This document shows positions 28,790-34,771 of a stretch of DNA of 64,000 nt, piece by piece. The position numbers and the translations under genes were made by a program. Each line of letters opens with the position of its first letter. The stretch's first letter is position 1. The DNA is from Verrucomicrobiaceae bacterium (GTDB lineage Bacteria; Verrucomicrobiota; Verrucomicrobiia; Verrucomicrobiales; Verrucomicrobiaceae). A model generated the notes under the pieces. That model was not told where the DNA came from. It saw nothing but the letters and a program-made list of their open reading frames with translations, and searched no databases. Where the stretch lies: assembly GCA_015075365.1 (NCBI GenBank), contig JABTUN010000005.1:186001-250000 (forward strand), written 5' to 3'.

Positions 28790-29677
28790 ATGCGCCAGCT
28801 TTTTTTCGACGCCATCAATCCCTACACCGGCCGGATTCACACTCTGGACGACGCCAATCTTTTTTTCGGCGCGGACGGCCTCGGCTATGCCCGTGATTCC
28901 TGGGACGAGGGCTTCGTGCCCTATGTGATCCCCGCCCATCCTTCCTCACCAACCAACCCTCCACCCTCCACTCGCATGACACGCCAAAATTACTTCCCCA
29001 CCCGCCAGGCAGACCAGGCCGTCTGGCTGGAGAATTTCCGCTTGAAACTCGTCCTCCACGCCGTGGCGCTGGGCCTGGCCGCGCCGCGCGTGGCGGACAT
29101 CGTGGCAGACGCGCGCTGGCTGGTGCATCTGCTGGTGTCCTGGCTGGGGTCCGTACGCTCGCACGGGAAGGCGGCCACCAGCACGCTGGAGCAGGCGATG
29201 ACGGGCGACGGTCCGCTGACGCTGCCGGTGCACACGCCGCCGCCGCTGGCGGACGGCGTGGTGGCGCGTCCGGCGGGCGCGTTGAGCCGCATCTTTGACT
29301 TCATCGCGGAGATCAAGGAGAACGACGCCTGCACGGAGGCCATCCAGATCGAGCTGGGCATCCTCGGCTCTGTGGAGCCGCCGCCAGACATGCCGAACGT
29401 GCGCCCGGACATCACCGCCATCCTTTCCGCAGCCGGGGTGCAGATCGGCTGGGGCTGGCAGGGCCTGGCGAAGCATCTGGACCAGTGCGAAATCCAGGTG
29501 GACCGCGCTGATGGCAAAGGCTGGGTGGTGCTGACCTACGACACCACGCCCGGCTACCTGGACACGACCCCTTTCCCCGCCGCGCTGACGAAATGGAAAT
29601 ACCGCGCCATCTACCGCGTGGACGACCACCAGGTCGGCCTGTGGAGCGCGGAGGTGAGCGTGAATGTCGGCGGATGA
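28790..29677 (+). CDS. Hypothetical protein with C-terminal fibronectin-like domain
   Basis: 295 residues from ATG 28790, or 233 if translation begins at the internal ATG 28976 (MTRQNYFPTRQADQ). The later start fits the homologous proteins I recall from this phylum, which begin near NYFP. The N-terminal helical region contains DQAVWLENFRLKL and ARWLVHLLVSWLGSVR. The C-terminal ~90 residues (IGWGWQGLAKHLDQCEIQVD to VGLWSAEVSVNV) look like a fibronectin type III or Ig-like fold. The upstream extension LFFDAINPYTGRIHTLDDAN is in frame, so I kept the longer model. There is no signal peptide and no known function. Confidence 0.6.
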   Translation: MRQLFFDAINPYTGRIHTLDDANLFFGADGLGYARDSWDEGFVPYVIPAHPSSPTNPPPSTRMTRQNYFPTRQADQAVWLENFRLKLVLHAVALGLAAPRVADIVADARWLVHLLVSWLGSVRSHGKAATSTLEQAMTGDGPLTLPVHTPPPLADGVVARPAGALSRIFDFIAEIKENDACTEAIQIELGILGSVEPPPDMPNVRPDITAILSAAGVQIGWGWQGLAKHLDQCEIQVDRADGKGWVVLTYDTTPGYLDTTPFPAALTKWKYRAIYRVDDHQVGLWSAEVSVNVGG

Positions 29678-29743
29678 GCGAGTCCCCCAAAAAAAATAGG
29701 TGAGCACAAGCCAAGCCAAAACTAAACATCAAACACAAGCGCC

Positions 29744-30232
29744 ATGACATCAAAACACATCCGATCAACATTATGCACACTAATTGCTACAGCCCTGAGC
29801 CTGTTCGCAACCTTTGCAGTCCCGGCGACTTCATTCGCTGATGACCGTTGTCCTTACTGTGCAAAAGATCACACCAGAGATTGTAATTGGTGCTACTGGG
29901 ATCACGAGTACTATTGGGCTGAGGAGGAGTACAATACACAATGTGATGTCTTGGACGAGATGTATAGCAATCCAAACACAACGCTTGGAGAGATTTCGGC
30001 ACAGGAGGATGTTGTTTCGGAGGCTGGGTACTACTGTGGCTACTGCATTGGTTTAATGGGCTTCAGCGGAGACTGCATCTGCTACAATGACGAGCCGGAC
30101 GAGAACCAGGAGGAAACCCAGCAGGAAACCCAGCAGGAAACCCAGCAGGAGACCCAGCAGGAGACCCAGCAGGAGACCCAGCAGGAGACCCAGCAGGAAA
30201 ACCAGCAGGAGACCCAGCAGGAAAACCAGTAG
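29744..30232 (+). CDS. Secreted cysteine-rich protein with (Glu-Thr-Gln-Gln) repeat tail
   Basis: 162 residues. A clear Sec signal peptide ends PATSFA, followed by a ~85-residue acidic domain with eight or more cysteines in close pairs: CPYC, CNWC, CGYC and CIC. Aromatic residues lie between them (CYWDHEYYWAEEEYN). The last ~40 residues are about ten EXQQ units (X is Thr, or twice Asn). The pattern suggests a disulfide-bonded or metal-binding secreted domain on a flexible polar tail. I recognise no family. Base composition is clearly AT-richer than its neighbours, hinting at transfer. The next gene starts 68 bp downstream after an inverted repeat. Confidence 0.8.
   Translation: MTSKHIRSTLCTLIATALSLFATFAVPATSFADDRCPYCAKDHTRDCNWCYWDHEYYWAEEEYNTQCDVLDEMYSNPNTTLGEISAQEDVVSEAGYYCGYCIGLMGFSGDCICYNDEPDENQEETQQETQQETQQETQQETQQETQQETQQENQQETQQENQ
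30112..30232 (+). repeat. 12-bp coding tandem repeat, about ten units
   Basis: Units of the type caggaaacccag / caggagacccag run head to tail to the stop codon. Synonymous gaa/gag changes and acc/aac changes distinguish the units, so expansion seems to have been followed by drift under amino-acid constraint. Confidence 0.9.
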
Positions 30233-30251
30233 GAGCCGGACGATCCTTAAA

Positions 30252-30286
30252 TCTACTCCCTGATTACCAAAAAGTCTGGGAGTAGA
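30252..30286. terminator. Inverted repeat between two accessory genes (terminator or attenuator)
   Basis: tctactccc and gggagtaga are a perfect 9-bp stem around a 17-base loop, just after the stop codon of the cysteine-rich gene. There is no T-run, so it could be a processing or attenuation hairpin instead of a terminator. Confidence 0.5.
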
Positions 30287-30300
30287 AATCTTCTCCAAAT

Positions 30301-30942
30301 ATGAAAGAAAAAGTGTTTTATTTGCTTGCTGGCATCCTGCCCTTGATTGCCATCGCGGGGGTTTACATCTGGCGTGAGCCGAATGATCAAAAAACCTCCG
30401 CCAAAGATTTTACTTCTGCGCGAGCCCCCCACTCCTCCGTTAAGGCAAACGCAGTTTCATCTGCCTCGATCATGAAAGATGGTGCCAACTCCTTGAATGA
30501 TTCCGACTTCTATCGGCAGATGGTTGAACAGGCTGAGCAGTCAAAGCGAAGGCTTAGAGAAGCCAAAATGAGACTTGTGGAAGCCTCGCCGCCGGAGGTA
30601 ATCAGGCAAAACCACATTAAGGGAATGCGCGACCGCGAACCTCAATTTCGCGAATTGATGATTTCTCTAGGCATACCACATTCTGTCGGCGAAGAAGTGT
30701 TGCAGGTGCTTTTGGAGAGAAACGTTCAATTGAACGAGGTCAATATTGACGCTGCGAAAGAGAGCGATCGAAACTTGAGTTCACTGTTATACACAGGCAA
30801 GGATGCGATAAGAAAACAGAGTTTTGAGAAGCTCGTTAAATTGGTTGGCAGAGATAATGCAGATGCCATATCCCAACTAGATATGAAAATTGATGCCGAG
30901 AACATTGCCCGTGCCCGCAAGGCACGTTATGGCGAGAATTGA
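30301..30942 (+). CDS. Membrane-anchored helical protein of unknown function
   Basis: 213 residues. One N-terminal membrane segment (VFYLLAGILPLIAIAGVYIW) is followed by a polar linker and a long helical, charged body likely to form coiled coils (MVEQAEQSKRRLREAKMRLVEA; later QLNEVNIDAAKESDRNLSSLL). The body probably faces the periplasm. No family was recognised. Base composition is as AT-rich as the preceding cysteine-rich gene, and the two share orientation, so they may have been acquired together. No ribosome site is obvious before the ATG. Confidence 0.75.
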   Translation: MKEKVFYLLAGILPLIAIAGVYIWREPNDQKTSAKDFTSARAPHSSVKANAVSSASIMKDGANSLNDSDFYRQMVEQAEQSKRRLREAKMRLVEASPPEVIRQNHIKGMRDREPQFRELMISLGIPHSVGEEVLQVLLERNVQLNEVNIDAAKESDRNLSSLLYTGKDAIRKQSFEKLVKLVGRDNADAISQLDMKIDAENIARARKARYGEN

Positions 30943-31076: not shown

Positions 31077-31742
31077 ATGGAGGCATCGATGTCCAATTTA
31101 CGGGGAGTCCCAAAAACGAAAGGGCGGGCCTTGTGATTGTCCCTGTTGTTCGCGTTTGCCCTCGGATGGCTCCTTCCTTTCACTTGGGTAGGATCGAAAC
31201 TGGCGCGTCTGCCGTTCCGCATGCCTGACCGTATCTGGCAGCAGTATGCTGCGGCAGGACTTTTCACCCAGCGATCCTCAATCTGGTCTGACTGGCGCAT
31301 CGAAATACGCATGGCCTCCAGCGACGAATGGCGAGTCCTCGACATGGCGCAGGTGTCACCGCAGCCCTCCTCGGGCTACCGGCAGCGGATGGACCGTATC
31401 CTCGGGGACACGCATAACAAAAAGATCGCCGAGAGCCTGCGCATGAGGCTGGCGGGGTGGATCGCCCAACTTCTGAAGAAGCAGGCGGGCATGGAGATCA
31501 GCGGTGTGCGCTACTACCACCGGGCGTGGCGCACGAACACGCCGGAGCTGGCGTTTCCAGACGGGCATTGGAATGGGGACGGGCCGCTGCCGGCGACGAC
31601 GAAGGTCGCGCTGCTGGGAACGTATGGGATCGCGGAGGGGAAGGCCGCGCGGGAGCGGGCCGCGCAGCGCGCGCCCGCTGCGGTGCCGCAACCAAAGATT
31701 TTCCGCCGGGAATCCAAGCAGGAACCGCCTGCAAAGTTATGA
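31077..31742 (+). pseudogene. Membrane protein partner of an HTTM-type gene, interrupted by an in-frame TGA
   Basis: From ATG 31077 (or 31089) the frame reads MSNLRGVPKTKGRAL, then TGA at 31134-31136, then a membrane segment LSLLFAFALGWLLPFTW and about 180 more residues. Replacing the TGA by TGG (Trp) would restore one ~221-residue protein. A TTG right after the stop (31137) could restart translation and still give a 201-residue membrane protein, so it may not be dead. The C-terminal half contains ELAFPDGHWNGDGPLP. The gene overlaps the next by ATGA (31739-31742), implying translational coupling. It resembles proteins I recall beside HTTM-domain genes; the function is unknown. Confidence 0.6.
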
Positions 31743-32656
31743 ATCACCCTTCCAGCCCGGACATGCCAGCCACGTACGGCGAGAGTAGTCCCTCCGGGGC
31801 TTCACAGCGCGGACTGCTGTCTGCGCTGGTGGATGACATCGACGCGCTGCCGCTGCGGGTGTTTGAGGTGCTTTTCACCTGCGCCTTCCTGCTGCGCATG
31901 GGCTGGCTGGGCCTCTCCTGGCGGGAATGGCTGACGGAGGAGGGATTTCACCTCAACGCGGCGGAGCTGGCGGCGGTGGGCTGCCCGGAGCCGCTGCCGT
32001 TGCTGACCGGGCCCGGTGTGGCGGCTCTGGCGGTGGTGATCTGCCTTTCTGCAGCGGGTCTGATGCTGAACAAGGCACGGCGGCTGGCGCTTCTGGGAAT
32101 TTTTGGGTGCGCTCTCTACACCCAGGGTGTGGACTGGATGTCCGCGTCCTCGATCAGCAAGCTGTTCGTCGGTGTGTATGGGATCCTGCTGCTGACGCCG
32201 GGCTACACGCGGGACGCGGCCAGCGGGCGGCTCATGGTGAGCGCGGTGCCGGTGAGGCTGGTGCAGGGCACGCTGATCTGCCAGTATCTTGCCTCCGGGA
32301 TCGCCAAAGGATTCAGCGGTGACTGGCTGAAATACAACGACGTGGTGTACACGCAGATGCAGGGCATTTTCAGGACGGATTTCGCGGCGTGGTGCCTGCG
32401 CACGCTGCCGCTGTGGAGCTGGACGGGGATGTAGTGGGTGACGCTGCTCTTTGAACTGGAGGCACCGGTGCTCTTCTGTGTGCGGAAGCTGCGCCCCATC
32501 GCCTTTGTGATCGGGATGGGGCTGCATCTCATGATCGCGCTGATGATGAAGGACCTGATCTTTTTCAGCGCGCAGATGTGGACCTTCTACGCGCTGTTTG
32601 TGACGCCGGAGCAGTGGCGGTGGCTGGGCGGCGTGCTGCGCGCGGCCTGGAGGTGA
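31739..32656 (+). pseudogene. HTTM-domain-like integral membrane protein, interrupted by an in-frame TAG
   Basis: The frame codes for ~305 residues with several membrane helices (VFEVLFTCAFLLRMGWLGL, GLMLNKARRLALLGIFGC, LVQGTLICQYLASGIAKG). A TAG at 32432-32434 breaks it after residue 231 (..LPLWSWTGM), and the same frame continues WVTLLFELEAPVLF for 73 residues. A single C-to-T change from CAG would explain the stop. The layout resembles HTTM (vitamin K-dependent carboxylase-like) membrane proteins, including SdpB-type proteins, but I am unsure. Losing the last helices probably inactivates it. It is translationally coupled to the preceding damaged gene. Confidence 0.65.
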
Positions 32657-32774: not shown

Positions 32775-33332
32775 ATGCCCGACTCTCATGACCAGGACGA
32801 AGCCTCCGTGTTGGTCCGGCGTGCCCTTGATCAATATGAAAGCAGCCTCATCGCCTACGCAGCCGGCATCCTCGGTGGAGACATCGAGCGCGCGCGCGAT
32901 GTCGTGCAGGACGCGTTGTTGCGGCTCTACCTCACGGAACCGGGCAAGGTGCGTGAGAACCTCAAATCCTGGCTCTACACCGTCTGCCGCAACCGCGCGC
33001 TGGACATCCTGCGCAAGGACCACCGGCTGGACATCGGCAACGAGGAGATCATGGAGGCGTCCCCGGCCCATGGCCCCGATCCGGTGCAGTTCGCGGCCAA
33101 TCGCGAGCTCTATGAGCAGATCTGGCGCTGCGTGGACCGCCTGCGCCCGAACCAGCGCGAGGTCGTCCGCCTCAAATTCCTCCACGACTGCTCCTACCAG
33201 GAAATCGCCAGCATCACCGGCCTCACGGTGGGCAACGTGGGCTTCATCATGCACCACGCGATCAAAAAACTGCGTGAACTGCTCAGCAACGACATCCCCG
33301 CCGAGCACCTGACCTCCCTTTCATCATCATGA
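32775..33332 (+). CDS. ECF-type RNA polymerase sigma factor
   Basis: 185 residues. Region 2 includes YAAGILGGDIERARDVVQDALLRLY and SWLYTVCRNRALDILRK. Region 4 includes LRPNQREVVRLKFLHDCSYQEIASITGLTVGNVGFIMHHAIKKLRE. Two-domain sigma-70 factors of this size direct RNA polymerase to stress or envelope promoters and are held by an anti-sigma factor. The stop codon overlaps the start of the next gene (ATGA, 33329-33332), so the partner is co-translated. An autoregulated promoter probably lies in 32657-32774, but I cannot define it. Confidence 0.93.
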   Translation: MPDSHDQDEASVLVRRALDQYESSLIAYAAGILGGDIERARDVVQDALLRLYLTEPGKVRENLKSWLYTVCRNRALDILRKDHRLDIGNEEIMEASPAHGPDPVQFAANRELYEQIWRCVDRLRPNQREVVRLKFLHDCSYQEIASITGLTVGNVGFIMHHAIKKLRELLSNDIPAEHLTSLSSS

Positions 33333-34771
33333 ACCCGCAAGACAATCCTCAATTCACCGCGTACGCCCTTGGCGAGCTCGATTTCGGCCAGGCGCGCGAG
33401 ATTCACGACGAATTGCAGACGAACTCCGCCGCCGCGCACGAGCTGGAGCACATCGAGGCCGTGACCGACGCCCTCCGCCACGGCGCGCCGATCCCGCTGG
33501 CGCGCCTCACGCCGGAGCAACGCCACGCCGTGCTGCATCCCACCCATCTGCCGCGCCGCATGCAGCCCATGATGCCACGCAAGCCTGCGCCAAGGCCGCA
33601 GCCGGTTTTCTGGACCGGCATGGGCCATCTGCTGAAGGCTGCCGCCGTCATCACGCTCACGGGCGGGGCCTTTCTGGCCGGCTGGCGCATGCAGCCGCAG
33701 CAGTCCGGCCTGGCCGAGGTCAAGGCACCGAAGCCTCCGCTGCCGCAACCCGTCCCCGTGGAGCCGATGGTGGAAAGACAGCCCGTGGTCGTCGTCGAGG
33801 CACCGGCTCCGGCCCCTGAAAAGGTCGCGGCACCGGCCCCCAAGCCGCTCACACCTGCTCCGGTGGTTGTCGCGGCAGCGCCACCCGCGCCGGAAAAGCC
33901 GAAGGCTGCCGCTGCCATCGAAAAGCCTCAATCGTCGCAGCCCGTGGAGGTGGCCGAGTCCCTCAAGCCCGTTCCTGCCGCGGTCGGGCTGGGCTTCAGC
34001 ATGCCGCGTGGAGCCGCGGCCGCCTTTGCGAACACCACCCGGCAGCCAACAGCACAGTACAGCCTCCAGCCATCGCTCGTGCGCCCGCCCGCGCCCCGGC
34101 GTGATCCGCAGGTCATGGCCTCACCGGTGAAACCCGGCACGAAGGTGGAGGAAAAGCCCGCAAAGGCCTCCGATCTGCTTCTTTACTCCTGGCAGTCGGA
34201 GATCGCCTCCTGCCCGTGGAATCCGGCGCATCGTCTGCTGCGCATCGTGATCCAGCTCCCGGCCAATCAAGCGCCGGTCATCAGCAGCACGGACGCCCGC
34301 TTCCCGATGGAGATCACCTTCGACGCCGGCGCGGTGAAGCAGTTCCGCCTGCTGTGCGAGCGCCATCTGCCTGCCGCCGACCTGTCCAGGGCGGGCACGC
34401 ATGTCGTGTGGTATGAGTTTCAGCCGAATGGCGCGGTCGAATCCCGCGAATCCGGCCGCCAGATCGCCACGGTGACGGTGCCGAAGGCCCGTTTTGCCGT
34501 GCAGCCTGTGGGCCCCTTTGGCGGCACGGACAGCAGCCGTCTGCGCGTGCTCGATCGTGGCTACACGCTGCAAAATGCCCGCGAGGACTTCATCTTCGAG
34601 ACGGCCGTGGTCGGCTTCGGCCTGCTCATGCGTGGCGCGGAGCAAACGGGCAGCTTGAATCACGACATGGTGCTCGACCTGGCCACCCGCGCCAAAGGCG
34701 GTGACGGCCCGAACGACCGCAGCCGTTTCATCAAGCTGGTGCAGGACGCTCAAAAAGTCGTGGGGCTGTGA
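33329..34771 (+). CDS. Probable anti-sigma protein: N-terminal regulatory domain, TM helix, YfbK-like C-terminal domain without a VWA domain
   Basis: 480 residues. Residues 1-80 are a cytoplasmic anti-sigma-like helical domain (FTAYALGELDFGQAREIHDEL), lacking the HxxxCxxC zinc motif. One membrane helix follows (LLKAAAVITLTGGAFLAGW), then a ~150-residue Pro/Ala linker. The C-terminal part matches the end of YfbK-type proteins (DUF3520): ETAVVGFGLLMRGAEQTG and SRFIKLVQDAQKVVGL. In full YfbK-type proteins a von Willebrand factor A domain lies before DUF3520. Here it is missing and no MIDAS motif (DxSxS) is present. The gene overlaps the sigma-factor gene, so it is most likely its membrane-bound regulator. 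Confidence 0.8.
   Translation: MNPQDNPQFTAYALGELDFGQAREIHDELQTNSAAAHELEHIEAVTDALRHGAPIPLARLTPEQRHAVLHPTHLPRRMQPMMPRKPAPRPQPVFWTGMGHLLKAAAVITLTGGAFLAGWRMQPQQSGLAEVKAPKPPLPQPVPVEPMVERQPVVVVEAPAPAPEKVAAPAPKPLTPAPVVVAAAPPAPEKPKAAAAIEKPQSSQPVEVAESLKPVPAAVGLGFSMPRGAAAAFANTTRQPTAQYSLQPSLVRPPAPRRDPQVMASPVKPGTKVEEKPAKASDLLLYSWQSEIASCPWNPAHRLLRIVIQLPANQAPVISSTDARFPMEITFDAGAVKQFRLLCERHLPAADLSRAGTHVVWYEFQPNGAVESRESGRQIATVTVPKARFAVQPVGPFGGTDSSRLRVLDRGYTLQNAREDFIFETAVVGFGLLMRGAEQTGSLNHDMVLDLATRAKGGDGPNDRSRFIKLVQDAQKVVGL

Follow-up and report, generated by a model that had tools for sequence, protein, structure and literature searches.

Two in-frame stops in a coupled membrane gene pair of a Prosthecobacter-like Verrucomicrobiaceae genome: probable recent nonsense decay at the end of a five-gene cassette

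The overlapping gene pair and its in-frame stops

Two adjacent membrane protein genes of a Prosthecobacter-like Verrucomicrobiaceae genome are each interrupted by a single in-frame stop codon, raising the question of whether the pair has decayed, is read through, or was assembled with errors. We consider it probable that they are the last two genes of a cassette with the order A-B-C-D-E, and that both were recently hit by single nonsense changes. In the window (the whole 64 kb stretch of DNA analysed), gene D occupies positions 31089-31742 and gene E positions 31739-32656, both on the forward strand. Gene D is predicted to encode one N-terminal transmembrane helix and an alpha/beta domain of ~180 aa, and gene E a polytopic membrane protein with an HTTM/GGCX-like fold. 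An earlier note, made from the sequence alone, had reported both stops in frame and an ATGA overlap of the two genes, and all were seen again, the overlap at 31739-31742. The premature TGA is codon 16 of gene D (31134-31136, forward strand) and is adjoined by a TTG (31137-31139) that could serve as a restart, and the premature TAG is codon 232 of 305 in gene E (32432-32434, forward strand), with loss of the last 73 residues. The start of gene D, placed by the note at 31077, is more likely the ATG at 31089, because a GGAGG Shine-Dalgarno sequence on the same strand (31079-31083) ends 5 nt before it.

All 64 kb were scanned with a codon-usage model trained on the long genes of the window itself. 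The TAG at 32432 had the strongest two-sided coding signal of any stop (0.30 and 0.49 nats per codon on its two sides), which marks it as more than a chance feature. Seven other stops from the scan were weaker on at least one side, and most of these lie opposite a predicted gene on the other strand or where a gene ends normally. The 15 codons upstream of the TGA at 31134 had no signal in this model (-0.27), and the evidence for the gene D stop therefore comes from homology to the N-termini of relatives and from the Shine-Dalgarno sequence.

Intact orthologues and the alternatives to nonsense decay

Searches of both products against related genomes located the two genes next to each other in several relatives, and the intact orthologues show a single gene on each side of the overlap, without the stops. 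The closest named orthologue, L111 (CALMTT010000658.1, uncultured Verrucomicrobiaceae), is intact and shares 83% identity with gene E and 66% with gene D; orthologues of gene D are intact in G066/L111, G020, G019, G060 and G023. The column of the TGA holds Arg in four relatives (L111, G020, G023 and G060) and His in G019, so Trp is not the ancestral residue and an Arg codon is likelier than the TGG that the note had expected. Its proposal of CAG at the TAG agrees with the near-invariant Gln of that column across homologues. Between the window and L111, dN/dS was 0.24 for gene D and 0.21 for gene E, and within gene E it was 0.21 before the TAG and 0.20 after it. Values of about 0.2 that are equal on either side of the TAG indicate that the stops are recent, and sequence comparison thus points to a frame kept under purifying selection until recently. 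Gly for Val at codon 230, close to the TAG, looked like a second, missense change but was rejected as one, because the intact gene of G060 also has Gly there.

The TAG falls inside a predicted membrane helix and removes the conserved C-terminal helices, including the invariant LMIALMMK..FFSAQMW.FY block, the most conserved part of the protein. Loss of function is therefore likely, and truncated gene E is most likely non-functional. For this gene we conclude that the stop probably represents real, recent nonsense decay in an uncharacterised cassette and not recoding.

For gene D, the TGA precedes the sole membrane helix and the gene is probably impaired, its product being either lost or made at a lower level from the TTG at 31137. 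Through the ATGA coupling, the stop in gene D should also lower translation of gene E. It is a realistic possibility, though on the unlikely side, that only gene E is dead and that gene D works from this TTG, with the TGA doing no more than shortening a variable leader. The TTG follows the TGA immediately, the resulting 201-aa product retains the membrane helix and every invariant residue of the gene D alignment, and relatives differ in leader length, with G023 having 4 codons ahead of the site. However, this product loses the basic N-terminus, i.e., the K/R residues that flank the helix in relatives, and its candidate Shine-Dalgarno (AAGG/GGGCGGG) is weak compared with the strong one at ATG 31089. 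Since a helix-retaining product could be made, inactivation of gene D is not certain. The note's claim of a recent inactivation of the coupled pair is still the best reading, and its recency is supported by the intact orthologues and by a dN/dS near 0.2 before and after the TAG alike. The two genes need not have been inactivated jointly, as the note suggested, and gene D may still be made.

The main rival to nonsense decay is an error of consensus or assembly at one stop or at both, in which case the organism itself would carry intact genes. Each stop differs by one possible transition from the codon types of relatives, and the pair has no frameshifts along with its low dN/dS. We consider such errors unlikely, however, given that the assembly comprises 6 contigs and that, among the remaining long genes of the window, the codon scan showed no internal stop comparable to these. 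It would also be a coincidence for two independent errors to strike a single coupled pair of 1.6 kb (~3% for the second landing there at random), and gene E is independently broken in four relatives.

Read-through, whether by a suppressor tRNA or through some other form of recoding, is highly improbable. The frames are open and conserved on either side of the stops, which speaks for it, but the checks that the note had called for turned up neither a stop-reading tRNA nor a SelB above its cut-off. The genome search yielded 57 tRNA matches, most assigned by ARAGORN and the rest, in an array on contig 1, read from the sequence and Rfam alignments; none of the 57 had a stop anticodon (TGA, TAG or TAA), and no selB scored above the cut-off. 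Two matches to the tRNA-Sec model exceeded their cut-off and coincide with tRNA-Leu and tRNA-Ser genes. Moreover, the stop sites align to Arg and Gln rather than Sec, the two stops are of different types, and ordinary genes in the window end with TAG and TGA. Single intact orthologues rule out a chance arrangement of open reading frames and refute the alternative, raised in the note, of truly separate genes with these boundaries.

The tRNA array itself spans C1:886951-892392 of the same genome (G000; L080:6952-12394) and holds about 14 tRNA genes, several of them diverged, as well as a GOLLD RNA (159 bits; L080:10889-11318). It is probably a phage or another mobile element.

The cassette and the damage to its last gene in the genus

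Three further genes on the forward strand precede the pair, all intact in the window, and decay of the cassette is thus at an early stage. Gene A (28790-29677; 295 aa) is fibronectin-like by inspection, with no Pfam match, and lies upstream of the pair in relatives as well, including G060; tblastn found it at the same locus in G023 (71%), G008 (55%) and G020 (38%). Gene B (29744-30232; 162 aa) encodes a secreted, Cys-containing protein with a hydrophobic N-terminal segment (residues 10-28) and a QQET repeat tail, and its positional counterparts in G020, G023 and G060 carry a signal peptide and Cys motifs, often together with a repeat tail. Gene C (30301-30942; 213 aa) has one N-terminal membrane anchor (residues 5-23), with counterparts in L111 (23% identity) and, in tandem, in G023. 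Genes B and C diverge fast. The full order A-B-C-D-E recurs in G060 and, in damaged form, in G020 and G023.

All three upstream genes (window 28790-30942; L133, L040 and L041) evolve fast, and the in-frame repeat tails of the secreted Cys protein vary by species (QQET, DNQQ and TSEP). In two relatives, large secreted proteins seem to take the position of gene B (L113:582-3728 in L113 and L048:3462-6371 in G008), the former being Ig-like according to Pfam.

As named by inspection of open reading frames, the cassette neighbours are rnpA/yidC-like genes in L111, argC/argJ-like genes in L113, and a 2-oxoacid:acceptor oxidoreductase-like gene and a cstA-like gene in L112; the neighbour in the window is an ECF sigma factor. 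Because the neighbours differ between relatives, we conclude that the cassette relocates or is transferred. The earlier note had recognized the coupled pair and missed the relocating cassette, whose last gene breaks repeatedly across the genus. Directly downstream of the pair (32775-34771), the ECF sigma factor gene is followed, with an ATGA overlap, by one for a protein with a YfbK C-terminal match.

Homologues of gene E at E < 1e-8 were detected in 11 of 48 same-genus genomes. The gene looks intact in six of these carriers (G066, G019, G058, G060, G006 and G024) and is broken in the other five by five different lesions. Besides the TAG of the window, these are a frameshift in G023, a C-terminal remnant next to transposase pieces in G026, a short fragment with a TGA in G008, and, in G020, an interruption near residue 198 by a sequence of which that genome carries 7 copies. 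The end of this insertion lies at L040:6737-6876; as a 25-aa reading of it had no Pfam match, it is taken for an insertion sequence on account of the 7 copies. In G020, gene C seems to carry a frameshift as well. Gene D was not found in G058, but gene E lies there about 600 bases from the contig end. Where assemblies are fragmented, some of the lesions may be errors, yet they differ in kind.

Nonsense pseudogenes are ordinary in bacteria, and the pair resembles them in its isolated premature stops, otherwise conserved frames and intact orthologues. It differs in that two adjacent, coupled genes are affected and in that the last gene of the cassette is broken in several congeners. A second pair from these two families, diverged but intact, lies elsewhere in the genome (G000:C3:890697-892936; L024 and L038; 39% and 35% identity) and may cover the function of the broken one.

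Predicted folds and a possible role in maturation of a secreted protein

Five of six gene E homologues matched Pfam HTTM (PF05090; best E 1.8e-10), and the window protein itself scored 19.7 bits against a gathering cut-off of 27.7. When gene E was modelled with AlphaFold2 as a protein read through at the TAG (mean pLDDT 71.5), Foldseek matched the model to 15 GGCX chains below an E value of 0.001, with values of 2e-5 to 3e-4 (best E 2.2e-5, probability 1.00, TMq ~0.60). The model and the homologues' profile matches thus identify gene E as a predicted membrane protein of the HTTM / vitamin-K gamma-carboxylase fold. The predicted fold corresponds to the membrane part of GGCX cryo-EM structures, whereas gene E is only ~305 aa long compared with 624-698 aa for the matched GGCX chains; it is also truncated by the TAG and falls below the Pfam cut-off, the likeness being one of predicted fold. 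For gene D, the AlphaFold2 model (pLDDT 70) has the one N-terminal helix and the ~180-aa domain, and a structure search found no relative of it in the PDB.

The layout of the cassette is reminiscent of the SdpAB/SdpC and YitPOM systems of Bacillus, with a small one-helix protein beside an HTTM-like polytopic protein and an adjoining variable secreted protein. The Bacillus yitPOM and sdpABC operons generate secreted toxins from SdpC-type precursors whose C-terminal regions diverge, and it has been proposed that YitM needs YitP and YitO for its processing (PMC6818787). Membership in these families was not supported: one gene E homologue weakly matched SdpB (E 0.002), no genome searched reached the 178.4-bit cut-off of SdpB (TIGR04033), and gene D had no NCBIfam match, SdpA included, in any of its 9 members. 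We therefore keep the likeness as an analogy only. A difference from the Bacillus operons is that no immunity gene was recognised in the cassette, and a literature search for HTTM together with SdpB found nothing. Elsewhere in the genome, a further HTTM protein (G000:C2:1430110-1430727) has a sub-threshold SdpB match (E 4.8e-10), and many congeners have similar ones.

By this analogy, the order of a secreted protein, an anchored protein, a one-helix protein and an HTTM protein would resemble SdpC with SdpA/SdpB, and gene order suggests that D and E probably help to mature or export protein B, the variable secreted product. A GGCX-type carboxylation of Glu in the QQET tail is conceivable and poorly supported, because Asp replaces Glu in the G020 tail. 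Repeated loss is possible for a trait that is costly or linked to competition, and this would fit the five different gene E lesions in the genus. We tentatively suggest, as a somewhat speculative extension, that the cassette might be an unrecognised system for maturing a secreted protein, possibly a competition factor, in which a GGCX-fold enzyme acts on a fast-evolving Cys/repeat protein and the HTTM gene is repeatedly lost through nonsense changes, frameshifts, insertions and deletions, the pattern expected of a costly trait that invites cheating.

The pair opens a view on an uncharacterised, relocating cassette of Verrucomicrobiota, in which a membrane protein with a predicted GGCX fold appears to be coupled to a variable secreted protein. 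With intact relatives at hand, the repeated and independent-looking loss of one gene within the genus provides a natural experiment on the cost or role of that gene.
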